Source: an uncultured Ruminococcus sp.
Lineage (GTDB): Bacteria; Bacillota; Clostridia; Oscillospirales; Acutalibacteraceae
Assembly: GCA_902774325.1 (NCBI GenBank)
Contig: CACYIC010000033.1
Coordinates: forward strand, 1-32,559
DNA: 32,559 nucleotides
Direction of reading: 5' to 3'
Below the pieces are notes generated by a model. The model was not told where the DNA came from. It saw nothing but the letters and a program-made list of their open reading frames with translations, and ran no database searches. Below, in pieces: positions 1 to 25,900 of the stretch. The position numbers were made by a program, and so were the translations under genes. The number at the start of each line of letters is the position of its first letter. Position 1 is the stretch's first letter.

Positions 1-5
1 CAGCA

Positions 6-1760
6 TTATGTCCTCCCTATCGTAATCAGCATATTGTTCAGCCCCAGGGCGCGGGTATAATTAACGTTGTCCGCCAGGGTGTTTATCATTTTCAGATTTG
101 TCAGCTCCTCCTCGTCGTCGTGTACGATCGCGGGGTCGAAGGCTTCGCCGTTATCCCTGACCGAGAGAATGATGCTCTTGTCGGTGATACGGCAGATAAG
201 ATCGATTTGCGGCTGCTTTTTGTCGCTGTTGAAGCGCCTGATGTGCTCAACGGTTTCCTCGGAGAGCACGCCCGCATAGTAGGCGTTTTTGCCGGTCACT
301 CCGTTTTCGGCGCAGAAGCCGATGACCTGATCGGAGATCTCAGCCGCCTGCTCCGCCTTGGGACGGAGGCTTGCGTCAAACATAGCGTTGCAGTCGGTCT
401 GCCGCTCATGCAGCAGTATCCCGCTGTATTTGTCCTTATTGACACGGTAAACGATAAAGCAGATCAAAAATGTGATCGCCGCCGTTAATGCTTCCGAAAG
501 CACGAACGCCCAGCTTGTACCCGTAAGCCCGAACCCGTAGGAAAGGAAGTACGCGAGCGGCACGGTGATAACAAGCCCGCGCAGGAAAGTGGTTATGACA
601 GATATCACCTTTTGCTTTGTCGCCTGCAGATAGTTCATTGTGACGTAGCAAATACCCATTCCGAAGAGGCTGAGCGAGAATATCCTCACGACGGGAATAC
701 CGATCGCAACGCGCTCGGGACTTTTGACAGAAAACATAGACAGCAGGAGATTTGGAAAAATCAGTATGAAGGCGATTATCACCGCGCAGGACGCGCCGAC
801 AAAAATGAAGGTTTTGCGCAGTACCATATCGATACCCTTATAGTCGCGTTCACCGTACAGCAGACTTACGATCGGAGTCATGGTGTCGCTGCCGCCGGAT
901 ACGAACATCGAAATAAATGTCACGGTGAAATTGCAGACCGAAAACACCGCCATGCCGTCGGGTCCGGTGGCTCCGAGCACGATTCGGTTAAGCAACAGCG
1001 CCTTGACAAAAAGCAGGACGGTATTTACAACAGAGGCAATGCCGCTGGTGCACAGCTCGCCGAGGTGTCTGAGATCCTCTTTTTTGAGAACGATAAACCT
1101 AAGCGTGCGCTTCTTGAATATAAGAAGGTAATACAGCTCCATCAAAAAGCCGACCGCGTAGCCCGTGACCGTGGCGAGCGCCGCTCCCGCGGTGTCCATT
1201 TTGAATATTCCCATGTAAACAAAATCCATAAGAAGATTCACGACGTTGGACACCAGCAGGATATTGGCGGAAAACTTCGGCATTCCGTCAACACGAATTA
1301 TAAACACAAGGTACGGCACCATGATCATGAACAGCGAGCCGTAGATATTAAACTGCGCGTAATGCTTTACATATTCTATCAGCGTCGCGTCACTGCACAT
1401 CGCGGCGGTGATCACGTCGATCAGCAGCGTTCCGACTATTGTCACGATAACCGATACCAGCGCCGCTCCCCAGAAGGAAAGCGTGAACAAAGCGTTTGCC
1501 TTGCGGGCTTCGCGCTGACCCTTCGCGATCGAAATGCTGATCGCTCCGCCGATACCGAAAAGGAAGAACATCGCCTGCATAAAGAGCACGACAGGCTCGG
1601 AGAGGTTTATGGCGGAAAGGGCATCGTCGTTGACCAAAGCGGAAACAATGATCCCGTCTACAAATGAGGCGAGAAGAATCGACATGGAGCTGATGATCGT
1701 CGGGAAAAGGTATTCATTAAACTTTCTGCCGAGCAAAGCAGAGTTTCGATGCAGCGCCAT
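6..1760 (-). CDS. MATE-family efflux transporter with C-terminal HATPase domain
   Basis: A 584-residue multidrug/oligosaccharide/MATE antiporter. About twelve hydrophobic helices fill residues 1-450, matching the normal length of the family; this family exports small molecules across the membrane using Na+ or H+ gradients. Residues about 465-584 are extra: an N-box-like EETVEHIRRF and a G1-box-like DNGEAFDP identify a GHKL/HATPase_c_2 fold, as in anti-sigma kinases of the SpoIIAB/RsbW type. No kinase acceptor-His or receptor domain is seen. The start ATG shares one base with the NRPS stop (TAATG), and AGGAGG lies inside the last NRPS codons, so translation is coupled. Exporting the NRPS product is the natural inference. 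The ATPase extension may sense or regulate, and its role is unknown. The stop codon lies six bases from the window edge. Confidence 0.9.
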   Translation of the reverse strand: MALHRNSALLGRKFNEYLFPTIISSMSILLASFVDGIIVSALVNDDALSAINLSEPVVLFMQAMFFLFGIGGAISISIAKGQREARKANALFTLSFWGAALVSVIVTIVGTLLIDVITAAMCSDATLIEYVKHYAQFNIYGSLFMIMVPYLVFIIRVDGMPKFSANILLVSNVVNLLMDFVYMGIFKMDTAGAALATVTGYAVGFLMELYYLLIFKKRTLRFIVLKKEDLRHLGELCTSGIASVVNTVLLFVKALLLNRIVLGATGPDGMAVFSVCNFTVTFISMFVSGGSDTMTPIVSLLYGERDYKGIDMVLRKTFIFVGASCAVIIAFILIFPNLLLSMFSVKSPERVAIGIPVVRIFSLSLFGMGICYVTMNYLQATKQKVISVITTFLRGLVITVPLAYFLSYGFGLTGTSWAFVLSEALTAAITFLICFIVYRVNKDKYSGILLHERQTDCNAMFDASLRPKAEQAAEISDQVIGFCAENGVTGKNAYYAGVLSEETVEHIRRFNSDKKQPQIDLICRITDKSIILSVRDNGEAFDPAIVHDDEEELTNLKMINTLADNVNYTRALGLNNMLITIGRT

Positions 1761-4700
1761 TATTCATCCTCCTCCGATTCAAAGAAGCCCAAGCCGTCGA
1801 GCGCGGTAATAAAGCTGCTCATATAATCGCGCGAGGTCATCGACCAGCTGAAGCCGAGTCTGTAAAGCGCCTGGGTGGTATATTCATTATCGGTGGAGAT
1901 CATCTCCACAGTCTTAGAGCTGTCCTTGTTGTCATAAGCGAGCAGGGTCGTAAGCTTCTTAGCCTTTACAGGGTCGCTCTGAGCTTTTGCGAGCATCTCC
2001 AAAAACTCGTCATCCTCAACGAGCTTTATATTCATTCCCATGTCACGCATTTGAAGAATGATGTCGCCCAAGGGCACAAAATGGTTGTTGAAGGGATGGA
2101 ATACGCAGCACTTGTCGGAGGTCGAGCAAAGTCTGACGATCGCCTCGGCGGTTTCGTCGATCGGAGCCATCTCTACCGGGTAATTCATCATACTGTAGGG
2201 ATAAGCGCCGATGACAAGATAAGCTCTGAGTCTGCCCATGAATCCGTTGGTAACAAAATTGATCTGGAACTCGCCGTCGCTGTCGCGCGCCGAGAGGTTG
2301 CCCACGCGCATGATCTTACCTCTCAAGCCGTCCCTGACTGCCTCGAGAACATAGCGCTCCGCGAGGAACTTGCTGTGAACGTACTGATTGTCGATCACCT
2401 GTCCGAAGTAGAGCTTCTGCTCTGTGAGCCTGACGTCGGCGGACGGATAGCCGTTGACCCTGTCGCCCGCTACGCTTCCCGTTGAGACCTGAACGATCAT
2501 GCTCTTATGCTCCTTGCAAAAAGCGATCAGGTTTTTAACGCCCTCGGCATTAACCATCTCGATGTCGTTTGTCTCGGAAAAATGCTTTACCAGCGCGGCG
2601 CAGTTGATAACGGTGTCAATACGCGCATCCTTGAGCTGACAGAACCATTTTGTATCGGTCACGCTGCCCTCTACGACGGTGACGCGGTTTTCAAAGCAGC
2701 CCTCAAAATCATCCTCAAAGTAGTAATAGAGCTGACCTCTGAGGCGCTGCTCGGCGCTGAGGCGCTTTGACGAGCGCAGCAGGCAATAGACGTGACCGCT
2801 GTAGTTATCAAGGAAGAACTTGAGGATGTGGACTCCGAGGAAGCCCGTAGCGCCGGTGAGGAGAAGATTGCCGACGCGGTTTTTATTTTCTTTCAGAGAA
2901 TCAAGATTGTTAGCGGTGAGGATATCGTCAAATACCGAATAGTCGTAATCGGCTAGACCGTCGGAAAACTCTGACTTGTCCGAGCATTTAGCGGCGATAG
3001 CCTTCGGGGTCTTGAGCGCGAAGATATCGCCGTATGAGACCTCTAACCCCTGCTCGTTCGCTTCGACAAGCACGCTTGTGACCGTCAGCGAGGTTCCGCC
3101 GAGGTCAAAGAAGCTGCTGTCGGCGCTGACCTTTTCAAGAGAAAGTACGTTTTTGAAGATCTCGCAGAGGATTTTTTCCTCTCTGGTGACAGGCTCAGTA
3201 TAAGCCGCCTCAAAGCTGATCCTCGGCTGAGGCAAAGCCCTGACGTCCGTTTTTCCGTTCGGCGTCTGCGGCATTTCATCCAGACGAATGATGGCGGCGG
3301 GGATCATGTAGGCTGTCAGGCGCTTTGAAATATGCTCCCGAACCAGCTCCTCGGTGACCGAAGGAGCTGCGCTGTACCACGCGCAAAGGTTGTCGACGCC
3401 GTTGATGGGACGGATGAGCACGACAGCCTGATTGACTCCGTCGCAGGAGAGTATCGCGCGCTCGACCTCGCCGAGCTCGATCCTCAGACCTCTGAGCTTG
3501 ACCTGATTGTCGCATCTTCCGAGGATCACCACGTCGCCGTTCTCCGTCCAGCGCGCGTAATCTCCCGTTTTATAAACTCGCCCGCCGTTGTAGTCCGTAA
3601 AGCTTTTTTCGGTGAGCTCGGGATTGTTGAGATAACCCTCCGCTACTCCAGCTCCGCCGACATACAGCTCGCCGACAATGCCCGCGGGAAGCGGATTGCC
3701 GTCGGCGTCAACGATATACTCGGTAACGTTGAGCAATGGTCTGCCGACGCATACCGTATCGGAGTCGGTCAGCTCCTTGGCGTTGCAGGAAACGGTGATC
3801 TCGGTGGGGCCGTAGGTATTGAATATCCTCGCTCGGGTGATTATTTTGAGGTTTTCAAGCAGCTTTGGAGAGTATTTCTCGCCGCCGCACATGATGATCC
3901 TGCAATCCGCGAGAACTGCCTTGAAAGCGTCGAGCATCATATACTGCTCGATCCTGGAGGGCGTCGCGTTTATCACGTCGCCTCCGGTGCGCCTGAACAG
4001 CGCGCAGAGCTTGAGGGGATCCTTCGTTTCGTCCTCGTCGGCAAGCACGAGCGTCAAGCCGTTGCAGAGCGAGGCGGCGGTCTCCTTGAGCGACATATCG
4101 AACGAAACGGTGGTCACCGAGACATAAACGCCGCCCTCGTTTTTCAGCGCGTAAATATGGGTATTCTCGGGATAAGGAGTGAGGTAGTTCGCGATTCCCT
4201 CATGCTTTATGATGACGCCCTTAGGTCTGCCGGTCGAGCCGGAGGTATAGATGAGATAAGCGGTGTCGCCCGGCTTAACGTCTACCGCCGGGTCGGAGGC
4301 GTTTCCGTTTTGGATAAGCGACTCGATATCAAGCTCGTTGTCAAAGCCGCGCGGTCTGTCGGTAACGATATATTTCGCCCCGCTGTTTTCGAGGATGTAT
4401 TTGATCCTTTCGTCGGGGTATTCGGGATCGCAGGGGATATAAGCCGCGCCTGTTTTGAGAATTGAATAGATCGCGATGATCTGGCGGCTCGTGCGAGGAA
4501 GAAGGAAGGCGATCCTGTCTCCCCTGCCGACGCCCTTTTCGATCAGGGCATTGGCAACGCGGTTGCATTCTTTATTGAGCTCGTCGTAGGTGTAGGCTCT
4601 GTCGCAGGCGATAAGCGCGGTCTTGTCGGGATTTTCGGCAGCGCGCGCCTCAAACAGCTTGTGATACAGCTTTGTTTCGATCTCGCGGCTCTGAACGCCG

Positions 4701-7700
4701 GAGAAGGCTTCAAGCTTCTTTTTGTCGTCATCCGTGAGCATACTTATTTTGCAGAGCTTTTGAGAGCCGTCCGCGATGATCGACTCGGCGCTCTGAGCGA
4801 TCGAGGCTGAGATCAGCCCTGCGAGCTTTTCGCTGTAAAGAGCGGAATTGTACTGAACGTTGACCGCGATCTTTCCCTCAGCGCCGTCCTCGATGTGGAT
4901 CGAGAGATTGAACTTTGGCAGCGGATTGGTGATGACGCTTTCGACGATCTCGGCGCCCTCGAGCACGGCGGTCTCATCGACGCCGAGCTGGCAGGCGTAG
5001 TTGATCTTTGAGGCAAAGCCATATTTTTCAAACAGCTTGATGAACGGATAGGCGCTGTTTTTCTGAGCCGCGCGGATGGAGGCGGCTGCGTCGGAAACAA
5101 ACTCGAGCGCTGTCCTTTCCCGGTCGATGCAGGCGTGCAGCGGCAGGCTCTTGACAAACATTCCGAGCGAATCCATGAAGCGGATATCCTCTCTGCCGCC
5201 GGAGATCATCGAGATATAGACATGACGGTCGGCGGTGCAGCGGCTGACCGCGTACTCAGTCGCGGCAAGGAAAAGCGCGGCGGGAGTAAGCGAATTATCG
5301 CGGCAGAAAGCGTCGGCATCGGCTCTGTCGATATATGTGACAGCCTCCCTCAGCTCGCCCTCCTCGGCGCTGCCGTTCAGATCGGCTGAAATATCCGAGG
5401 CGTTCTCGTAATCTGCGAACAGCTCGCGGTAATAGCCGAGCGCCTTTTCGCCCTGCTCACTGCGCTCAAGCTCAGCCTCCTCGGCGATATAGACGTAATA
5501 GGATGTATCGGTCTCGGGTCTGGAGTCGTTGGTGTAAATATCGGCGAGCCTTCTGATGAACGCGGAAAGCGACAGCCCGTCGAAAATGATATGGTGGGCG
5601 TCAAAAAGCAGCACGATGTTTTTCTCGGTGCTTATGATCTCGCAGCGGAAAAGCGGACCGCGAGAGAGATTGAAGGGCTTTACAAACTCCGCTTCCTCGG
5701 CGGCAACTGCGGCGGAATTCATCGTGAGCACGGGAATATCATATTCAAGGCTGTCCGGCTGCTTTTGAACAATGTCTTTGCCGTCGAGCACAACGACCGA
5801 GGTGAGCACGGGATTCGCGGCAATGAGCAGCTCAAGCGACCTTTTCAGTTTGTCGACATCCGTGCGCTTCGAGAGCGTGTACTTCATCGGGATATTGTAA
5901 ACCAGCGCGTCCGGACGCTTCATGCTGTCGTAGTAAACTCCGAGCTGTTCGGCGCAGAGCGGGACCCTTTCTGTCTCGGCTTCAACTCTTTTATCGGAGT
6001 CCGCCGATCTGCCGCTGAGAAGATTTTCAATAATAAGGTTTTCTACCGTGAGCAGAGAGCATTCTTCATCCATCAGCTCCGCCGCTCCGGTTTTAAGTCC
6101 AAAGCTCTCAAATAGCTTCGCGGAAAACATGATAGTCGTCAGCGAGGTGAGTCCGAGCGACACAAGGCTGTCGGTCACGTTATTGCTCTCAAAGCCCGTG
6201 ATCTCGCTGACCATGGCGCAGAGACGTTCCTCCAGCTTATTGAGCGCTCTTGCGCCCTGAGCCTCGTCATTGCTCTGCACCGAGGGCTCGGGCAGCTTGC
6301 GCTTGTCGACCTTACCGTTAGGATTGATCGGGATCTTCTCGATCTGTATGATGACCGAGGGAACCATATATTTGGGCAGCTCCTCGGAGATAAAGCTGTT
6401 CAGAGTCGGAACATCTATCGGGGAATCCGCTACGACATAAGCGATCACCGCCTTTCCCCCGCTCGGGAGATCCTTGGCGATAACAGCGGCGTCCTTCACC
6501 TGCTCAAACTCGCGGATACGGCGCTCGATCTCGGTCAGCTCAATGCGGAAGCCGCGGATCTTTACCTGCTCGTCGCGTCTGCCGACGAACTGCACGTTGC
6601 CGTCGGGGAGATAGCGGCACACGTCGCCTGTGAGATACATTCTCTCATAGCCCTCGAAGTCAAAGAACGGATTGGGGATGAACTTTTCCTCTGTAAGGTC
6701 GGGACGATTCAGATATCCGCGCGTAACGGGATATCCCGAGATCACGAGCTCACCAACCGCGCCCGCGGGCAGCAGACGGTTCTGCTTGTCGACGATATAA
6801 ATATCGCAGTTGCCGAAGGATTTTCCGATCGGAACAGAGGCGTATTCCTTGTCTATAAGATAATCGGTAACATAGATGGTACATTCCGTGGGTCCGTAGG
6901 TGTTGACAAAATCAAAACGGGGCGGAGCGCAGGGCACCAGCTTTTCGCCGCCGACAGTGAACGTCCTCATATAGGGGCTTTCCGGATACGCCGTGATATA
7001 CTGCCTGCCGAGCTGGGTGGTGCAGTCCATCATGGTGATCTTATTGCCGATGACGAACTCGTGAAGCCCTACCAAATCGAGTCTGGTTTCCTCGGGAACG
7101 ATATAAACAGAAGCTCCGGCGGTCAGCGCGGGATAAAGATCCTGCATCGAGGCGTCAAACCCGAAGGCTCCATAGGCGGAGAAGCGGTCGTTTTCGGTGA
7201 CGCCGAATTTTCCGCAGAAGGCAAGGCAGAAATTCACAAGATTGCGGTGCTCAAGCATACAGCCCTTTGGCTTTCCTGTGGAGCCGGAGGTGTAGATCAG
7301 AGCGAACAGCGAATCAGCAAGAGGCGGTGTAAGCTCCGCTTCTGTGTTCTCGGGCAGCTCGTATATCTTATTTGCCGAGAGGATGATCCCGCCGTAGCCC
7401 TCGATGATCGGGGCGAGCTCGTCGTCGGCTATGACGACCGGAGCCTTGGAATCCTCCAGCATATACATCAGCCTGTCGGGCGGATAATTGCTGTCGAGCG
7501 GCTGGCATCCGCCGCCCGCCTTGAGCACCGCGAGGGTGCAGACCGGGAACAGCTCGCTGCGCTTGACCATGATTCCTACCGGCACCTCGCGGGTCACGCC
7601 GTTTGCGGCGAGGAGCTTCGCGAGATTTTCGGAATAATGATCGAGCTGCGAATATGTGAGGCTCTTATCCTTAAAGCTTACGGCGATATTGTCGGGGTGT

Positions 7701-10700
7701 AGCCTTGCCTGTCTGCGGAAAAGCTCAACCATGGTGAGCGAACGATCAAATTCAAGTCGGTTGTCGTTCGCGGCGCGGTAAAACTCCTTTTCCCTCTCGG
7801 TACAGAAGGTAAGCTCCGAAAGCTTTTGACATTCAAGCAGACCCTTGACGATATTTATATAAAGATTGGCAAAGTTGTCAATCGTTTCCTCAAGATAAAG
7901 ATCGGCGCGGTACTCAAAGGAAAGCGTATAATCGTCCTCTCTTTTGAGCACGTCCAGCGAAAGCTTTGACATGGCGTCGCCGGATTTATGGATACGATAC
8001 GGCACAAAGCTGCCGTTGAACTCAACGCCGTTGAGCATTTCGCCCTGATAAACAAAGATTATATCGGAATTGACCTCGTAAGAATTAGCAAGCTGAACTA
8101 TGGAAACGAGGTCATGGCTCAAGCTGTCGAAAAGCAGCTCCTGAACGTCCGAAAGATAGGAGGCGGTCTGAGCGTTTTCATCAATATTAACGCAGACAGG
8201 AAGCGTATGGACCAACATTCCGTAAGTGTTTCTCAGCTCCGGAATATGCCTGCCGTTCTCAACGGTGCAGAAAAGCGACTGCTCCTGACCTCCCTGCTTG
8301 GCAAGTGCGTAGGCAAAGGCGCCGAGGAAAAGCGAGTTTTCGGTGATCCCGAGCTTTTTGCAGACTTCGGCGACGAGGGGAACGCTCAAATAATCCCTCA
8401 GAGCGAAGGCTTTGTGCGCGCCCGTGATCTGCGGCGGGTCGTCGATTTGATCGGGAATAATATTTGAATCGGTCTCGACACCGGCGAGCATTTTGTCATA
8501 GAATTCCATGCACTCGTTGTAACGACGGCTCTGCTTCAGCTTTTGCTCGTAAGAGCTTAGCATAAAGCCGCTGACGTCCTCGCGCTCGGGAGCCTCTCCC
8601 ATATAGATTTTAGCCAGGTTACGGATGAACACCGAGGTCGAGGTTCCGTCGGTAATCAGGTGATGGACATCGTTGAAGAAGTAAAGTCCCTCGGGAGTGA
8701 CAAATATCTTGAAGCGGAACAGCGGCCCGTTCTCAAAGTCAAACGGCTTGACAAAGTCCGCGCACAGCTTATCCGCGTCGGTTTCGTCGGTGGTTTCCAT
8801 ATCGACGACGATCTTCATATCCCTGACGGGAACAACGCAGGGCGTACCGTCGATCACCCTCGCGCAAACCCTCATAAATGGATACAGCTTCGCGGTCTCC
8901 CTGACTGCCCGAGCGAGCTTTTCGGGATCAACGCCCATATCCCTCGGGAAGAACATCGAGGCGGGGTTATTGTATTCAAGGCTCTGCGGCTGCTGGATAT
9001 TCGCGAGATAGATACCGAGCTGAGCGTCGGTCATGGGATAAGCGGACTTTTCCTCATACTCAAAGGAAACTGTTTCGCCGTCGCCCGAGCCCGCGGCGAT
9101 AGCCTTTGGTGTCCTAAGCGAGAATATCTGAGCGGAAGAAAGGCAAAAGTCCGAAAGCTCCTCCTGGAGCATGACCGCCTTGATCGAGTCGCCGCCGAGC
9201 GAGAAGAAGTCGTCGTTCACGCCTACCCTCTCGACCCTAAGCAGCTTTTCAAACGCCGCGCACACCTGCCTTTCCGCCTCGGTTTCGGGAGCGGCGTACT
9301 CTGCCTGGAAGTCGGAGGCGCTCGGCTCCCTGAGAGCCTTGCGGTCGAGCTTGCCGTTCGGTGTGAGCGGGAACTCATCTATCTTAACCAGAAAACGAGG
9401 AATCATATACGGCGGGAATTTCTTTGAGAGCGTCCAGCGGATCTGAGCGTCGCTGAGCTCTCTGTCCGAGGTATAATAGCCGCAGATATAAGTCTGCCCG
9501 TTATCGTCGGTGAACGCCTTGACAACGGCGGTCACGATCCCCTTGATCTTGCCGAGCTGAACCTCAACCTCTCCCATCTCGACTCGCTGACCGTTGACCT
9601 TTACCATCCAGTCCTTGCGGTTAACATAAACGATACTGCCGTCGGGCAGCTTTTTACAGATATCCTTGGTATGCAGCAATCGCCTGTCCGATTCATCTAC
9701 AGAGTAGGGATTCTCGGTGAAAACCTCTGCGGTCAGCTCCGGGAGATTGATATATCCCCTCGCCATCGTTCCTGCAATGCAGAGCTCTCCCTCCTCGCCG
9801 TCCGAAACCTGTTTTCCGTTTTCATCGAGCAAATACGCCTTGAAGCCTGAAAGCGGTCTGCCGATCGGCGTGTTGTCATAAGCCTTATCGAGCTCGAAGG
9901 TCATGGCGATGCTGAGCACCTCGCTCAAGCCGTAGGCGTTTTTGATATGAGCGTACGGGCTGTAAATGCCGCTGATGCGCTCGCCGCCGCTGTTGATGAG
10001 CCTGAGGCTGCTTTCTCTGACGGGGAGCTGCTTTAAAAGCTGCGGACTGATGACCGCCGCGGTGATGTTATGGCGGTCTATATATTCATCTATAAAAAGG
10101 ATATCCTTGCGCTGGGCTTCGGTAAGGATATGTATCTCCGCGCCCGCCCAAAGCGAGGTAAGGATATCGTGAGCGGAGATAGCGAAATTGAAGGGCGTGA
10201 CGCTGAGCTCAACGTCGTCAAAGCCCGCGCCGATCTCAAGCTGCCTTATGATCGCGTTTGTGTACGACCAATGATCGTGCAGGATGCCTTTGGGATTTCC
10301 GGTCGAGCCGGAGGTGTAGATCGCGATAGCGGCGTCCTCCATACGTATTTCGGGAAACTCGGAGAGTATCCTTTCGCTCCCGATATTCTTGAGGAACTCT
10401 TCATCAACCGCGAAATCGGCTCCGCTGTCCCTGATGATAAAGTCCACCCTGTCCTTCGGGTACTCGGTGGAAAGCGGAGAATAAGCCGCGCCGGATCGCA
10501 GGATACCGATAATCGAGGCTATATATAAAAAGCCGCGCTCAAGAACGATCGGGTACACCTTTTCTCTTTCGGCTCCCCTGCGGAGCAGACGCGAGGCGAT
10601 TTTCGCGCTGAGCCTTTCGAGCTGCGCGTAGGTCATTTTTTCTTCCATGCACACCAGCGCGGTCTTGTCGGGATGCGCCGCCGCTATGCTGAGGAAGCGT

Positions 10701-10717
10701 TCTATAAAGTTTTGCAT
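1760..10717 (-). CDS. Nonribosomal peptide synthetase, A-T-C-A-T-C-A-T-R (peptide aldehyde type)
   Basis: A 2985-residue assembly line. Domains: A1 1-490, T1 (Ser511 in LGGDS), C1 (HHLITDG 685-691), A2 about 1010-1490, T2 (Ser1525, in an unusual LGLTS), C2 (HHIIFDG 1708-1714), A3 about 2015-2490, T3 (Ser2543 in LGGTS), R 2615-2985. R has TGATGFLG (Gly2622) and the SDR pair Tyr2779/Lys2783; such domains release the chain as an aldehyde by NAD(P)H reduction. Both C domains look catalytically intact; there is no epimerase, starter C or thioesterase. By-eye ten-residue codes: A1 AIHVISASIK, A2 DAQDFVTIYK, A3 DMKNICTVSK. A1 has Ala179 where alpha-amino-acid domains have Asp, and GLSE for GPTE, suggesting a fatty or other non-amino acid. 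A3 Lys could suit an acidic side chain. Start chosen at ATG 10717 (AGGGGG upstream); the ATG at 10777 falls in the -35 box. No phosphopantetheinyl transferase is in the window. Confidence 0.93.
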   Translation of the reverse strand: MQNFIERFLSIAAAHPDKTALVCMEEKMTYAQLERLSAKIASRLLRRGAEREKVYPIVLERGFLYIASIIGILRSGAAYSPLSTEYPKDRVDFIIRDSGADFAVDEEFLKNIGSERILSEFPEIRMEDAAIAIYTSGSTGNPKGILHDHWSYTNAIIRQLEIGAGFDDVELSVTPFNFAISAHDILTSLWAGAEIHILTEAQRKDILFIDEYIDRHNITAAVISPQLLKQLPVRESSLRLINSGGERISGIYSPYAHIKNAYGLSEVLSIAMTFELDKAYDNTPIGRPLSGFKAYLLDENGKQVSDGEEGELCIAGTMARGYINLPELTAEVFTENPYSVDESDRRLLHTKDICKKLPDGSIVYVNRKDWMVKVNGQRVEMGEVEVQLGKIKGIVTAVVKAFTDDNGQTYICGYYTSDRELSDAQIRWTLSKKFPPYMIPRFLVKIDEFPLTPNGKLDRKALREPSASDFQAEYAAPETEAERQVCAAFEKLLRVERVGVNDDFFSLGGDSIKAVMLQEELSDFCLSSAQIFSLRTPKAIAAGSGDGETVSFEYEEKSAYPMTDAQLGIYLANIQQPQSLEYNNPASMFFPRDMGVDPEKLARAVRETAKLYPFMRVCARVIDGTPCVVPVRDMKIVVDMETTDETDADKLCADFVKPFDFENGPLFRFKIFVTPEGLYFFNDVHHLITDGTSTSVFIRNLAKIYMGEAPEREDVSGFMLSSYEQKLKQSRRYNECMEFYDKMLAGVETDSNIIPDQIDDPPQITGAHKAFALRDYLSVPLVAEVCKKLGITENSLFLGAFAYALAKQGGQEQSLFCTVENGRHIPELRNTYGMLVHTLPVCVNIDENAQTASYLSDVQELLFDSLSHDLVSIVQLANSYEVNSDIIFVYQGEMLNGVEFNGSFVPYRIHKSGDAMSKLSLDVLKREDDYTLSFEYRADLYLEETIDNFANLYINIVKGLLECQKLSELTFCTEREKEFYRAANDNRLEFDRSLTMVELFRRQARLHPDNIAVSFKDKSLTYSQLDHYSENLAKLLAANGVTREVPVGIMVKRSELFPVCTLAVLKAGGGCQPLDSNYPPDRLMYMLEDSKAPVVIADDELAPIIEGYGGIILSANKIYELPENTEAELTPPLADSLFALIYTSGSTGKPKGCMLEHRNLVNFCLAFCGKFGVTENDRFSAYGAFGFDASMQDLYPALTAGASVYIVPEETRLDLVGLHEFVIGNKITMMDCTTQLGRQYITAYPESPYMRTFTVGGEKLVPCAPPRFDFVNTYGPTECTIYVTDYLIDKEYASVPIGKSFGNCDIYIVDKQNRLLPAGAVGELVISGYPVTRGYLNRPDLTEEKFIPNPFFDFEGYERMYLTGDVCRYLPDGNVQFVGRRDEQVKIRGFRIELTEIERRIREFEQVKDAAVIAKDLPSGGKAVIAYVVADSPIDVPTLNSFISEELPKYMVPSVIIQIEKIPINPNGKVDKRKLPEPSVQSNDEAQGARALNKLEERLCAMVSEITGFESNNVTDSLVSLGLTSLTTIMFSAKLFESFGLKTGAAELMDEECSLLTVENLIIENLLSGRSADSDKRVEAETERVPLCAEQLGVYYDSMKRPDALVYNIPMKYTLSKRTDVDKLKRSLELLIAANPVLTSVVVLDGKDIVQKQPDSLEYDIPVLTMNSAAVAAEEAEFVKPFNLSRGPLFRCEIISTEKNIVLLFDAHHIIFDGLSLSAFIRRLADIYTNDSRPETDTSYYVYIAEEAELERSEQGEKALGYYRELFADYENASDISADLNGSAEEGELREAVTYIDRADADAFCRDNSLTPAALFLAATEYAVSRCTADRHVYISMISGGREDIRFMDSLGMFVKSLPLHACIDRERTALEFVSDAAASIRAAQKNSAYPFIKLFEKYGFASKINYACQLGVDETAVLEGAEIVESVITNPLPKFNLSIHIEDGAEGKIAVNVQYNSALYSEKLAGLISASIAQSAESIIADGSQKLCKISMLTDDDKKKLEAFSGVQSREIETKLYHKLFEARAAENPDKTALIACDRAYTYDELNKECNRVANALIEKGVGRGDRIAFLLPRTSRQIIAIYSILKTGAAYIPCDPEYPDERIKYILENSGAKYIVTDRPRGFDNELDIESLIQNGNASDPAVDVKPGDTAYLIYTSGSTGRPKGVIIKHEGIANYLTPYPENTHIYALKNEGGVYVSVTTVSFDMSLKETAASLCNGLTLVLADEDETKDPLKLCALFRRTGGDVINATPSRIEQYMMLDAFKAVLADCRIIMCGGEKYSPKLLENLKIITRARIFNTYGPTEITVSCNAKELTDSDTVCVGRPLLNVTEYIVDADGNPLPAGIVGELYVGGAGVAEGYLNNPELTEKSFTDYNGGRVYKTGDYARWTENGDVVILGRCDNQVKLRGLRIELGEVERAILSCDGVNQAVVLIRPINGVDNLCAWYSAAPSVTEELVREHISKRLTAYMIPAAIIRLDEMPQTPNGKTDVRALPQPRISFEAAYTEPVTREEKILCEIFKNVLSLEKVSADSSFFDLGGTSLTVTSVLVEANEQGLEVSYGDIFALKTPKAIAAKCSDKSEFSDGLADYDYSVFDDILTANNLDSLKENKNRVGNLLLTGATGFLGVHILKFFLDNYSGHVYCLLRSSKRLSAEQRLRGQLYYYFEDDFEGCFENRVTVVEGSVTDTKWFCQLKDARIDTVINCAALVKHFSETNDIEMVNAEGVKNLIAFCKEHKSMIVQVSTGSVAGDRVNGYPSADVRLTEQKLYFGQVIDNQYVHSKFLAERYVLEAVRDGLRGKIMRVGNLSARDSDGEFQINFVTNGFMGRLRAYLVIGAYPYSMMNYPVEMAPIDETAEAIVRLCSTSDKCCVFHPFNNHFVPLGDIILQMRDMGMNIKLVEDDEFLEMLAKAQSDPVKAKKLTTLLAYDNKDSSKTVEMISTDNEYTTQALYRLGFSWSMTSRDYMSSFITALDGLGFFESEEDE

Positions 10718-16617: not shown

Positions 16618-18615
16618 TTAAGCCTTGATGATTTTTGTTGCTTTAACGCTTCTTTCGCCGCCGCTTTCCGTGATCTCATAGATCACATAATCGGAAGGAA
16701 CAAAGTTATCGTTATTGTCTATAGCGATAAACTGACAGCGGTACCTGCCGGGCTCCAGCATATTAAGCTCCGCCGTGATATCGTCGGAAGGGACGGTAAA
16801 AACAGAGTCATTACTGTCCGTCATGCCGCTTTCCGAAAAGGTATTGACGACATCTCCTGCCTTTAGCTCGGTAAAATCTCTGTTGACAAGACCGTTTTCA
16901 TCGTATTCCGCTCCGACGATCCCCTTTGAAATGATGGGTTTGTTATCGGCGTCTCTCTTCACAGAAAACCTGTATTTTGTCAGTTCGCCGTTACAGAGAA
17001 TATCCGCCGTGAAATTAAAGATTTTTTCCTTCAAGACGCCGCTGCCGGTCAGTCTGTTTCCGCAAAGAAAGTACCATTCGCCGTTAAAATCATGGGTAAA
17101 TGTCAGTTTATCACCGCTCTTGACCTCGTGAGTGTCCATTGAGAGGAGGAAAGGCTCCTTCCCTTCCCCGTAATACTCCCACAGCTTACAGCCGATTTCT
17201 TTCAAGCCTTGTCTGCTTTCCTCGGTCAGCGTGACCTCAAACTCGCCCTTATCATTTATGCTTCCCTTATCCGCAAACTCGATCGGTGTTTCGGGCATTT
17301 GCAGGAAGAGCAGTTTCAGAAGCTCCGCGTATTGCCTGACAGGGCAATTTGCGATATAGGCTTTGAGATCGTCCTTTTTGTAATTCACGGGATAGTACAT
17401 CGAAATGCCGGTGCATAACGCCCTTGAGTATTCGGGGTCATCATTTGGAAACGGATATGTCAAGACGTCGCCGATATGATAAGCGATCAGTCCGCCGAGC
17501 GCCGTCTTTATTTTCGAGATCTCCTCCGGCTCCGTCGTAACGCCGCTGGTGAAATTCAAAGCGTCCACCACATTGTATTCGTTGTCTGCCTCTATCGGTG
17601 AGCTCAATCCGGCAAGAAAGGAGTAGAACCACGCGGCTCCGTGCTCACTTTTCTCCATTGCGCTCTGCCCGGAATCATTACGGATAAAATCAATCTCGCG
17701 GTCAAAGAACGCGTCAAGCTGATTAGTCGCCGCGTCTGTCTGAGAAAGATCAAAAAGCGATATAGACGCCTTTGCGTCCTGTTTTTTTACGCGACACTGC
17801 TCCATAAAGGAATCGCAGATCAACCTGCCGCAGGCTTCGTCATCATTGTCACCGAAGCTTTTGGCAATCACACTGTAATCGAATATTCCGCCGGGAATGA
17901 TCGTCTGGGATGCGATCATGTAATGAAAATAATCGCTCATTTGGGAGACGGCTTCAATGCTGCCCATAAAACAGGTATCGAACATCGCGATATCAAGCTT
18001 TTTCCGATCCTCAGCTCTGCCGAACATAGCGTCGGCATCGGACAGCTTCAAGCCCTTGAAGCCGAAATTTTCATCAAAGCAAAAGCCGTTTGTCGCGTCT
18101 CCCCCGTGATCCCATATAATCAGCATATCGCGCTCGGCGGGATAGGTTTTAAGCCCCCAATCCAAAAACGACTTGAAGGTCGCCGCATCGCCCATGCTTT
18201 GGTTAGGCAATTCATCAATTAGCGACAGCTCATGATTTTTGACGGTATAGCGCTGCAAACGATCGTTCGCGATGTTATGGGAATGCCATTTTTTCGCTCC
18301 GCCGGTCTCGAGCACAACGTTCACGTTCTCCGGGATATCCGCCTTTAGAAGCTCGTCGATATCCTTTCCCGCCATGCCCTGCTTGCTTTCAAGATTTGAC
18401 CCGCAAAAGTAAATAAAGACGGAACAGCTCGCGCCGGGACGGTATACCGGTTTATCCTCGTCGGTACTATTCTTGCCGGGAACATTCGCAAAGCGATTGC
18501 AGACACCGAAAACAACCAAACCGATAACCGCAACGCAAAGCAGCGCCGCCACAATCGGCAGGAGCAGCTTCGGCTTCTTTTTGCGATTTTCGGATAATGC
18601 TGTTTTTTCACCCAT
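16618..18615 (-). CDS. Clostripain-like cysteine peptidase (family C11), membrane anchored
   Basis: A 665-residue ectoenzyme. A single N-terminal helix (about residues 15-38, KLLLPIVAALLCVAVIG) anchors it with the catalytic part outside. The C11 dyad is visible: His170 in IIWDHGGD and Cys215 in MFDTCFMGS, 45 residues apart as expected for the family. C11 enzymes usually cleave after Arg or Lys, often after self-processing. The C-terminal half (about 430-665) is beta-rich with no recognised domain. It is first in a probable operon with the lipoprotein, beta-helix protein and micropeptide, so it may process or release them. Start ATG is supported by GGAGG nine bases upstream. Assignment to C11 is firm; substrate is unknown. 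Confidence 0.92.
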   Translation of the reverse strand: MGEKTALSENRKKKPKLLLPIVAALLCVAVIGLVVFGVCNRFANVPGKNSTDEDKPVYRPGASCSVFIYFCGSNLESKQGMAGKDIDELLKADIPENVNVVLETGGAKKWHSHNIANDRLQRYTVKNHELSLIDELPNQSMGDAATFKSFLDWGLKTYPAERDMLIIWDHGGDATNGFCFDENFGFKGLKLSDADAMFGRAEDRKKLDIAMFDTCFMGSIEAVSQMSDYFHYMIASQTIIPGGIFDYSVIAKSFGDNDDEACGRLICDSFMEQCRVKKQDAKASISLFDLSQTDAATNQLDAFFDREIDFIRNDSGQSAMEKSEHGAAWFYSFLAGLSSPIEADNEYNVVDALNFTSGVTTEPEEISKIKTALGGLIAYHIGDVLTYPFPNDDPEYSRALCTGISMYYPVNYKKDDLKAYIANCPVRQYAELLKLLFLQMPETPIEFADKGSINDKGEFEVTLTEESRQGLKEIGCKLWEYYGEGKEPFLLSMDTHEVKSGDKLTFTHDFNGEWYFLCGNRLTGSGVLKEKIFNFTADILCNGELTKYRFSVKRDADNKPIISKGIVGAEYDENGLVNRDFTELKAGDVVNTFSESGMTDSNDSVFTVPSDDITAELNMLEPGRYRCQFIAIDNNDNFVPSDYVIYEITESGGERSVKATKIIKA

Positions 18616-18669: not shown

Positions 18670-19398
18670 TCAATTGCCGCCCTGTTCGACCTCTTTGATT
18701 TCGTCATTTGACGCTTGTTTAAGAGCGTATGTATCGAACGCCGCGTCCCTCGGCAATTGGATATCTATTCTGTCTATTTTCTGTATCAGACATTCTCCCG
18801 AGCTCATTACAGCCTCGAACACGTGTCCTCCGAGCTTTTTGTCCCTTGAGATAAAGTGCATGTGCCATCCCGAAGCGTTAATGCCGTCCATATAATCGGG
18901 GAAATACACACATACCAACGTTCCGTACAATCCTTCAAAGCAAAAATCCTTCTGTGTTTTTGAAAGAATGGTTTTCAAGGTAACGTGCTGAGAGCGATAA
19001 GGAGCACCGGCGCGCGCGCGTATTGAATCAAACCATCCGTCTATCCGCGCGACATGTATACTGTTCAAGCCAAAATCATCGTCTATTATCATTGTAAGAG
19101 CTAGTTTTATGGCTTCAATATCCTTCATTTCTCCAATTTCGATTCTTCTGCCGTCTTTTAAAGTACCCGCAACAGCAAAAGGTACTCCGTCAGAGTTTTC
19201 CGAGCGCACTATACTGCCGTCTTGCTTAGCTTGATAGCAGACGCCGTCAATAATGATCATCTCGCCGTCAACATTTTCAAAAGTGCCGAGCCCTGTATCT
19301 CCGTGTTCCAGCAGCTCCTCCACCGTTACAACAGGTTTCGTGTATCCCAGCGCTAACGCCTGCAGAGTAGATACCTGATATATTTTATTCAATTTCAT
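18670..19398 (-). CDS. alsD: Alpha-acetolactate decarboxylase
   Basis: A 242-residue cytoplasmic enzyme converting (S)-2-acetolactate to (R)-acetoin plus CO2 (EC 4.1.1.5), the second step of acetoin/butanediol formation, which drains pyruvate and can tune branched-chain amino acid supply. The metal-binding motif is intact: His179 and His181 in GWHMHF and His192 in GGHVFE, with the conserved EIGEMKDIEAIKLA stretch upstream. Length matches the family. The start is ATG 19398 because AGGGAGG lies ten bases upstream; a longer frame to 19479 lacks a ribosome site. No acetolactate synthase or butanediol dehydrogenase is adjacent, so it stands alone as far as this window shows. Confidence 0.93.
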   Translation of the reverse strand: MKLNKIYQVSTLQALALGYTKPVVTVEELLEHGDTGLGTFENVDGEMIIIDGVCYQAKQDGSIVRSENSDGVPFAVAGTLKDGRRIEIGEMKDIEAIKLALTMIIDDDFGLNSIHVARIDGWFDSIRARAGAPYRSQHVTLKTILSKTQKDFCFEGLYGTLVCVYFPDYMDGINASGWHMHFISRDKKLGGHVFEAVMSSGECLIQKIDRIDIQLPRDAAFDTYALKQASNDEIKEVEQGGN

Positions 19399-19434
19399 TT
19401 GGATGTCCTCCCTAAATCTTTTTATGTTTTGTTT

Positions 19435-22994: not shown

Positions 22995-25900
22995 TCATTT
23001 CTTTGTAACGCCGTCGCCGTAGATGGTCGTCCAGTCGTTCTTCATCGAAACAGCCGTCCAGCCGTTCTTCTCACAGCTCGCGCGCATGGAGTCAGCCTTC
23101 GCGAGGTTTCCGTTCTCGCGCTCGAGGTCGTCGCAGCAAAGCAGGAAAGCGCCGCTTCTGTACTTGTTATTGGTGATGGTATAATTCGCCATCGCCGCGT
23201 CGCCGGAGCTGTTGCCAAAGCAGAGCACAGGCTGCAAGCCTATCTCCTGTTCGATAACGCTGACCTTGTTCATTTTGAGGTTCTTGATGATAAATTCGCC
23301 GCCGGTTACAAGCTCGTCGTCCTGAGTAAAGGTGTAGTCGAGTCCGTCGGCGCCGCCCTGACCTGTCGCTACCAGGCTTTCATCCGAGCCGATCATCTGC
23401 GCGAGCGGGATATTTATCATGCCCTCGGCAAGACCTCTCGTAATAAGACGGTCGGTGCCGCTGACGATGTAAACCTTGAAGTCATTCGCCTGCAGGAAAT
23501 CAACCACCTGGAGCATGGGCTTGTAGAACGCCTGACCGTTCGTCATGTTGGTGTAGCTGTTCATCGGGGTATCTCTGTAAGCCTTAACATAAGCGTCGAA
23601 CTGCGCGGGAGTCATGCCCTTGAAGGCGGTGGCTACAGCGGTGCCGTGTCTTACGTCCATTCCCTTGGGATAAACGCCCGTATCAAAATATGTCTTGATG
23701 TCGGCGCAGACCTCTTTTTCATAATCGCTTGCCTTATCCTTGTAGTCGGGATCCTCCATGACTCTGTGATAAAACAGCTTGTGGTCGAAATAGCCTGGGT
23801 CTGTCTCGCAGCAGAGCGTGCCGTCCATATCGAATACCGCGATACGGTTCTCAACGGGGATATAATCCTTGGAGTTTTTGTCCGTGATCGCCTTCATGTA
23901 TTTTGTGAGCTCGGATTTGAGAGGAGCGGTATTTGTCCAGAGCGAGAGAGCGTCCTCCGCGATCGGCTCGCCGATACCCTCGGAAGCCTCAAGTCCCGCG
24001 ATAAAGCGCTGGATATCGGTCACGTCGTCGATCGAAACCTTGCCGTCGCCGTTTGTGTCGCAAGCTTCCAAAACAAAGCTTGAGGGCATTTCATAATGAG
24101 CGACGTATTTCTGGATCATCGTAGCGTCGTCGATCGTCACCTTGCCGTCGCCGTTTGCGTCGCCGAGAAGCGTTCCGACGAAGGGACTCTCATAAACGCC
24201 GCTGCTCTCGGGCAGAAGGCTGAGCGCCCAGCCGCTCTTGTAATCATCCCTTATGTGGCGGATATAGTAGATGCCGTCGCGGGTTGCGACGCAGGAGGAG
24301 CCTTCGCCGTAGTTATCGCTCAGAGAGTCAGAGGTTGTATAGTAAAGCGGCTCTATCCTGTCGGTCGAGGTGTTGTAGAGGAACACGTTGCCGCCGCCAT
24401 CAGCGGAAGCGCCGACAAAGACCATGCCGTTTTTCACGCTTGTCACCGCCTCGCGGCAAGTGATGTTGCCGTGATCGTTGTAAACTCTGCCTATAAGGTT
24501 CTTATCTTCCTTTTTCTCCCACTTTTCACCGTCAAAGCAGTAAATCGAACCGCTCAGTCTTTCATCTGTGGAAAGAGAGGTATCCGGGAGATAGCCGAAC
24601 ATCGCGTATAGCTTTCCGCCGGAAGAAACGAAATCAAAGCCTACGGTGTTGCTCGGAAGTCCGGGTTCCTCGCTCCATTTCTTTGTCTTGAGATCAAGGC
24701 TGTACATGAGAAGCGCGTTCGACTCGTTCTCGGAGGGAGTCATGGACTTGCTCAAATAATAAAGCTTGCCGCCGCAGACGCAGACAGAAAGCGACTCGGA
24801 ATACTCGGTATATTCAATATCGCTCGGCATTGCCTCGATCTCGCTGACGCTCCAGTGAGGATCGTCGCTGTTCAGGTCAAAGGAGCAAAGATACCATGAG
24901 TCATCCACATATACCGGCTCAGGCTCGTCTTCGCCGTCCTCATTGTCATCCTCGTCGTTTAACGCTCTGTAGTTGAAGCCTCCGTCATCATCAGGATCGT
25001 CGAAGTTTCCTTCTCCGTCCTCCCAATCCTCACCGCTTTCATCCGAATCATCATCATCCGGCGGATTTATCTGCACCATAATATAGACTACGCCGTTTTC
25101 GTTCGCGGGGACGTCTGTATTCACAAAATAGATTTGATAGCCGTTGTAAACCGTATAGCGGGATTCACCCTGCTGTACAAGATAATTGCAAAGTGAGTCG
25201 GAAAGGGCGGAATCCTTGATCGTAACGAACTGCTTACCGTCGAATTTGTATATCTCGCCCGTTTTACCGTTATAGCCGTAGAGGTTTTCGCCGTTCCTGT
25301 CAGTCAGCAGAGAAGGCGGAAGGAGCTCATACTGAACGCGCGATAAATCGGAGCCGTTCATTTCATAATACGTCTTGGTATCCTTGAGCTCGGAGCTGAC
25401 TGAGGTAAGCTTGGGTTGACCCTTGACAAGGAAGAACTTACCTGAGCCGCTGACTCCGTCCGCGGACGTTACGGTAAATTCCGTGTAAGTCGAAAACAGA
25501 CTCTTGGCATTACGGATCGCAAGCTGTTTGCCGTCGGCGGAGCTTTCGACCTTCATATTCTCGGGGAGAGAAGTCGCCTGCGAGTCCTGAGCGCAAAGGC
25601 TCCTGTAGGTGACGGTGCAGCCCTCGAAAAGGTTTTCGCCGATGAGGGTTATGGTTTCCTTATCAACATCGCAGACCGCGTCCGAAATACTCGGGACGGA
25701 CGCGTCGAGCTTTGAGAGATCGAGATAGCCGCCTGTGGAACAGAGCTCCCTGAGCTCATCTGTCCGAGTTACGCAGGAGAGCACCTTCGCGCGGATGCGC
25801 TTGGCGTAATCGGCGCCGGATTCTCCCTCCTGACGGGGATTGAGCGCGGAGATGAGCGCGCCGCCGCCGCAGACAGCGGGACATGCCATCGAGGTACCGG

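Follow-up and report, generated by a model that had tools for sequence, protein, structure and literature searches.

The question raised by the locus described here is what is made by a nonribosomal peptide synthetase (NRPS) whose first adenylation domain lacks the usual marker of an amino-acid substrate and whose last domain is a reductase. The gene lies in a 32,559-nucleotide stretch from an uncultured Ruminococcus sp. (assembly GCA_902774325.1, contig CACYIC010000033.1), hereafter the window, which is the whole of one contig (C33) of a 2.11 Mb genome that is 91% complete. We consider it fairly probable that the gene encodes a synthetase of three modules whose product is a capped dipeptide aldehyde, cap-aa-Glu-aldehyde, exported by the MATE-family protein encoded next to it.

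Domain order and proposed product

The NRPS gene is real and intact. It starts with an ATG at 10717, preceded by a strong ribosome-binding site, and stops at 1762-1760; Pfam found three AMP-binding, three AMP-binding_C, three PP-binding, two Condensation and one NAD_binding_4 domains in the product, all far above cut-off, and since relatives with 63-94% identity (best segment) occupy 20 fetched loci, the gene is no chance pattern. Among named genomes, those nearest to the window are for the most part uncultured Ruminococcus with RUG designations (83-94%, best segment), one isolate-type record being Lachnoclostridium sp. MSJ-17 (83%, best segment). The adenylation (A), carrier (T), condensation (C) and reductase (R) domains follow one another as listed in Table 1, with HHxxxDG present in C1 and C2 and the attachment Ser present in all three T domains, that of T2 lying in a motif that departs from GGxSL. 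The three A, three T and two intact C domains and the terminal reductase with its Tyr and Lys, announced in a preliminary description of the sequence, were thus all found in place. The nearest solved chain to the R domain is 6vtj, which we take to be the archaeal PCP-R (peptidyl carrier protein-reductase) didomain from Methanobrevibacter ruminantium, followed by the R domain of AusA. In addition, a PPTase-family (phosphopantetheinyl transferase) gene is present in the genome.

In the proposed pathway, A1 would activate a carboxylic acid without an alpha-amino group (not a long fatty acid but a small polar one, for instance an alpha-keto or alpha-hydroxy acid), which would be loaded on T1; C1, which appears related to starter-type C domains, would join this acid to the amino acid of A2; C2 would add an acidic residue picked by A3, Glu being likelier than Asp; the R domain, using NAD(P)H, would set the product free as cap-aa-Glu-aldehyde; and the MATE exporter would pump the capped aldehyde out of the cell. 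Because its N-terminus is capped, such an aldehyde would be unable to close to a pyrazinone. We infer the substrates, the release of an aldehyde rather than an alcohol, its export and its possible role in protease inhibition from the sequence.

The substrate of the loading domain

In the A1 motif FNFAIS, alignment to GrsA places Ala179 at the position held by Asp235, confirming the earlier remark that the alpha-amino-binding Asp is missing. A second marker is lost with it, Leu264 standing for the Pro of YGPTE. Among 137 scored A domains (141 were gathered; three L047 rows duplicating L065 and one gapped L051 A2 with Asp were left out), this Pro is kept in all 105 that bear Asp235 and in none of the 32 that do not, where it is replaced by Q (13), L (12), A (5), T (1) or S (1). 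These 32 Asp-less domains are related to one another and do not represent 32 independent events. Half of them (16) are A1s of the window family, nine belong to A-T-C-A-T-R NRPSs, five to A-T-C proteins that stand alone and two to more distant NRPSs of three modules (L037, L061). In the window family, that is, the window and the 20 loci, both residues are lost in 16/16 scorable A1s. An unrooted quick tree of 140 rows split the 32 from the other 108 (Shimodaira-Hasegawa-like approximate likelihood ratio test, SH-aLRT, 99; with long-branch warnings). According to the available part of a review (PMC11253843), the alpha-keto-acid domain StsA carries the same two changes, its A5 Pro being Met, and M415P abolishes activity, the equivalent residue being LgrA P483. 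Counted in an alignment (9be3 numbering), P483 is the Pro of YGPTE, and A1 shows the StsA-type combination of an aliphatic residue for Asp235 and a non-Pro residue at A5. With both Asp235 and the Pro of A5 gone, A1 is unlikely to be specific for amino acids; its substrate is probably a carboxylic acid that lacks the alpha-amino group.

Several observations weigh against a capped aldehyde made in this way. R domains of such a fold can yield alcohols, and a four-electron reduction would give a capped dipeptide alcohol; no sequence feature tested decides between the two products, so that of the release of acyl-aa1-aa2-CHO foreseen in the preliminary description it is the reductive step that is upheld. 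AusA, however, releases an aldehyde. Ruminopeptin and the gut dipeptide aldehydes are likewise described as aldehydes (the latter in the available part of PMC8518294), and we regard the alcohol as highly improbable. The nearest solved relatives of C1 are elongation C domains (TycC, LgrA), with no starter C domain recognised among the PDB matches listed, so that "starter type" is, for C1, a term taken solely from an in-genus tree. The A1 pocket is polar (His239, Gln278, Asn299 and Ser330) and points to no particular substrate. Pfam found no ketoreductase (KR) between A1 and T1; StsA-type alpha-keto modules include one, StsA itself being A-KR-T, and McyG activates L-Phe despite Val at position 235 (both from the part of PMC11253843 available), so that loss of Asp235 alone proves nothing.

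On the McyG precedent, A1 might activate an ordinary amino acid without the Asp, and the product would be a tripeptide aldehyde whose free amine may allow it to cyclise like aureusimine; A1 aligns best to amino-acid A domains, and the first NCBIfam match of the NRPS is the aureusimine synthetase AusA (NF047350). That match, however, scores 1696.7 bits, below the curated cut-off of 2500, A1 has lost the A5 Pro together with the Asp, as have all 32 Asp-less domains, these domains stand apart in the tree, and C1 clusters with a C domain not preceded by any A domain; we judge an amino-acid starter distinctly unlikely. A medium or long fatty acid on A1, giving a lipopeptide aldehyde like the published ruminopeptin by a different route, would agree with an Asp-less A domain and with the clustering of C1 with the starter C domain of the NRPS type that we assign below to Ruminococcus bromii, which, having no A domain ahead of it, must be supplied with an acyl group from another source. 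Such a starter is nevertheless unlikely, and a fatty-acid pocket was rejected, the code being polar and no fatty acyl-AMP ligase (FAAL) appearing among the best 50 of 1694 structural matches of the predicted A1 structure (predicted local distance difference test, pLDDT, 78.6); these 50 were NRPS-type A domains or modules, DltA, NpsA and one benzoate-CoA ligase, and the best were NRPS initiation and Phe-type A domains. The preliminary proposal that A1 loads a fatty or other acid is thus supported for a non-amino-acid starter, with two markers lost, but not for a fatty acid in particular. A beta-amino acid was also rejected: in the available part of PMC11253843 the Asp of VinN is equated with Asp235, which A1 lacks.

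Conserved and exchanged parts among relatives

The A3 code DMKSMGTVSK was found in 16/16 window-family NRPSs in which three A domains were read, and the Lys that had earlier suggested a possible acidic second residue occupies position 239; the code is of acid type, which supports that suggestion, and A3 more likely selects Glu than Asp. Three-module NRPSs whose first A domain bears DMKSMGTVSK were seen at L047/L065, L051, L105 and L106. The A2 codes are DAQQTGTIYK in the window, DAQQTGTIMK in L022 and DVSQTGAIGK in L018 and L027. The window code agrees with DAQDLGVVDK, which the literature assigns to Glu and Gln (in the part of PMC12283262 available), at the first three positions (D, A, Q), a likeness that is suggestive only.

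The alignments indicate that four relatives have exchanged either the whole A1 core or just the substrate-binding part of it. L019 and L023 share 33% and 32% identity with the window over the A1 core and, outside it, 57-58% over the C-terminal part of A1 and T1, 80-81% over the A2 core and 68-70% over R; L015 and L022 share 22-40% over about residues 120-260, with 50-73% upstream and 50-75% downstream, and no identity dip was found in A1 of L017 or L018. The four swapped A1s have VAQK- or VVQK-type codes, and in the A-domain tree their place is with the A1s of A-T-C-A-T-R NRPSs (98). Exchange of subdomains within A domains occurs in other systems; in the window family it affects the loading domain. 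At position 278 the VAQK-type pockets share Lys with the Asp/Asn code DLTKVGHVGK (PMC12283262, available part), and a dicarboxylic cap for the swapped relatives would be a guess.

The preliminary description also stated that there is no starter C domain. By position this is correct, Pfam and motif searches of the whole NRPS protein finding no C domain ahead of A1, but in a tree of 96 of 110 C domains (14 near-duplicates or short sequences left out; long-branch warnings) the window-family C1 clusters with C1 of the R. bromii-type NRPSs and of G160 (ultrafast bootstrap, UFB/SH-aLRT 99/95). In a second group, first C domains without a preceding A domain are intermingled with C1 of the A-T-C-A-T-R NRPSs (100/99). 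It is thus probable that a front A-T module was gained or lost ahead of starter-type C domains on more than one occasion, a pattern consistent with A1 supplying the acyl group, and the clustering of the window-family C1 points to a ruminopeptin-like line that carries its own loading module.

The A-T-C-A-T-R NRPSs (L062, L067 and L094-L100), of about 1980 residues, have an Asp-less A1 and an acid-type A2 code and are predicted to make capped Glu-aldehydes; the neighbours of the L062 NRPS include a PGA_cap (CapA-type) gene and another gene whose AMP-binding match is weak and below cut-off. The genome of the window also encodes a stand-alone A-T-C protein of 995 residues with the Asp-less code VAISFGIFAK (L002; L068:5221-8208, on G000:C8), and similar proteins occur in many genus genomes.

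The operon and known systems

Table 1. Positions of the NRPS, its domains and the adjoining genes in the window
Feature	Coordinates	Strand	Residues	Details
TPI-paralog gene	1..6	-		first two codons (ATG CTG), overlapping the MATE stop; continues on contig G000:C68 (L131:21-773)
MATE-family exporter	6..1760	-	584 aa	RsbW/SpoIIAB-like HATPase_c_2 tail
NRPS gene	1760..10717	-	2985 aa	A-T-C-A-T-C-A-T-R (Pfam and motifs)
A1 loading domain	9308..10717	-	~1-470	code AIHQNGASIK; Ala179 for Asp235; Leu264 for Pro of YGPTE
T1 carrier domain	9053..9280	-	~480-555	GGDSI at 508
C1	7808..9040	-	~560-970	HHLITDG at 685; clusters with starter C of R. bromii-type NRPSs
A2	6263..7765	-	~985-1485	code DAQQTGTIYK
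T2	6023..6250	-	~1490-1565	GLTSL at 1522
C2	4718..5995	-	~1575-2000	HHIIFDG
A3	3218..4690	-	~2010-2500	code DMKSMGTVSK, acid-type (Lys at 239)
T3	2948..3205	-	~2505-2590	GGTSL at 2540
R domain	1763..2890	-	~2610-2985	TGATGFLG at 2621; Tyr2779, Lys2783

The MATE start codon and the NRPS stop codon overlap by one base (TAATG), and the MATE gene lies directly downstream of the NRPS in 17/17 loci reaching past it, three of the 20 (L016, L020 and L025) ending inside the NRPS. Its HATPase_c_2 tail scores 21.0 bits in the window copy (cut-off 27.4) and 38.1 bits in the R. bromii-type protein. The next gene, which is the least expected part of the operon, encodes a paralog of triosephosphate isomerase (TPI). 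The first 26 bases of contig C68, on which it continues, are the exact reverse complement of the first 26 of the window, and two relatives span the junction at 87-90% identity. We found the TPI paralog after MATE in 13 of the 15 loci extending far enough, but not in L018 or L022. In all 14 copies (13 loci and the window's own) the catalytic Lys is replaced by Thr or Ser, Glu97 by Asp and Glu165 by Arg, and His95 is Leu in 13 and Phe in the window's own copy, the residue names being those we assign by convention; a canonical tpiA is present elsewhere in 6/6 genomes checked. The model of the paralog (pLDDT 85) has the TPI fold, with template modelling (TM) scores of 0.80-0.89 to TPIs among the matches listed.

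The window-type NRPS occurs in 11 of 161 genus genomes at 78-100% identity, in some as fragments only and with many of the genomes incomplete, and the TPI paralog occurs in the same 11 (7 of 81 good ones), a count uncorrected for the kinship of the 11. In 300 genomes drawn from the family it was found only in the window's own; this draw, which missed known carriers outside the genus-level set (e.g. L017), says only that the gene is rare.

In eight loci (L008-L013, L021 and L024) a STAS gene and a SpoIIE-type phosphatase gene follow the TPI paralog; in L017 they stand in the other order beside a second MATE gene, in L023 they lie upstream, and in L018 a SpoIIE gene lies about 5 kb on. No STAS or SpoIIE gene was found in L015, L019 or L022 within the DNA examined, or on C68, where likeness to the relative stops past the TPI paralog. 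STAS, SpoIIE-type phosphatase and/or HATPase genes beside NRPSs were seen at L008-L013, L021, L024, L057-L060, L063 and L064. Together with a MATE protein bearing an HATPase tail, these genes suggest direct coupling to the exporter. Partner-switch genes as a new association were rejected, having been reported already near mru0068 of M. ruminantium (available part of PMC2812497) and being absent from C68. In the titles and abstract openings, among the matches listed, of open-licence literature on gut dipeptide aldehydes, partner switching with MATE, TPI with NRPS and MATE, and archaeal NRPSs, we found no account of the NRPS-MATE-TPI operon, which is weak evidence of novelty; searches aimed at NRPS papers on R. 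bromii or the rumen gave no hits.

Elsewhere in the window, all on the minus strand, lie a clostripain-family (C11) peptidase gene near the NRPS (16618-18615), an alpha-acetolactate decarboxylase gene (18670-19404) and a gene for a single protein combining a subtilase, a dockerin type I domain and a HAD-type phosphatase (22995-28001).

We propose, tentatively and at somewhat less than even confidence, that in rumen Ruminococci the ruminopeptin-type line may be an exchangeable-cap platform, with a loading-module pocket swapped between species, a fixed Glu-aldehyde warhead and an active-site-less TPI, its catalytic Glu replaced by an invariant Arg, recruited for product binding, immunity or tailoring. 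If so, a known class of gut protease inhibitors would extend to the rumen, and such lines would show how the cap changes while the warhead stays, the A1 swaps offering natural examples on which to test A-domain engineering. As an accessory protein, a TPI stripped of catalysis and linked to a single NRPS would be unusual, and its ligand becomes a testable question; the linked operon would give a one-construct handle on product, exporter and accessory function.

The layout had been thought to match the ruminopeptin pathway of R. bromii. Genome G005 encodes a near-identical copy of R. bromii Amy16 (9qf9) and G002 a close copy, 94% identical to that of G005; two R. bromii starch-binding proteins gave no near-identical chain in the genomes compared. 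To judge from this single protein, G005 and G002 would be R. bromii and its nearest sister. Both Condensation domains found in each genome fall in a single NRPS of 2449 residues, presumably RupA of the ruminopeptin (rup) pathway, which Pfam reads as C-A-T-C-A-T-R; A1-T1 is missing, its first C domain spans residues 22-439, and an identical layout was therefore rejected. At L058 its neighbours are MATE, STAS, HATPase, LytTR regulator, GHKL kinase, DNA methyltransferase, AzlC and SbcD-type genes, with no acyl ligase seen among those scanned. The window NRPS shares with this type the C-A-T-C-A-T-R core, an acid-type last A domain one code position apart (DMKSLGTVSK in L038-L041), a C1 of the same clade (99/95) and an adjoining MATE gene with an HATPase tail. 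It differs in its extra N-terminal A1-T1, so that the chain does not begin with a C domain, in its A2 code (6/10 positions in common with the Leu-type DASQLGGVYK), in having MATE behind rather than before the NRPS and in the TPI paralog of its operon, and identity is 42% over window residues 551-2980.

AusA resembles the window NRPS in having an A-domain start, a C domain and a reductase end, but has one module fewer and an amino-acid starter. The gut clostridial N-acyl dipeptide aldehydes, such as N-octanoyl-Met-Phe-H of BGC0001686 (available part of PMC8518294), are also capped dipeptide aldehydes from an NRPS, whereas the window product is predicted to have an acidic P1 and a cap loaded by an A domain, a distinction made by description and not by sequence. 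In M. ruminantium M1, the available part of a 2010 paper (PMC2812497) describes mru0068 as a two-module NRPS, its last domain a thioesterase in the text and a thioester reductase in a figure legend, adjoined by a MatE exporter, serine phosphatases and an anti-sigma antagonist. Compared by description and not by sequence, this cluster resembles the window family in its NRPS and MATE genes and in the phosphatase and anti-sigma-antagonist genes nearby, but it is archaeal and no A-T loading module is reported in that part of the source. The core of the window NRPS is related to the ruminopeptin-type NRPS, and the window NRPS has in addition a front module, A1-T1, that is predicted to pick the cap.

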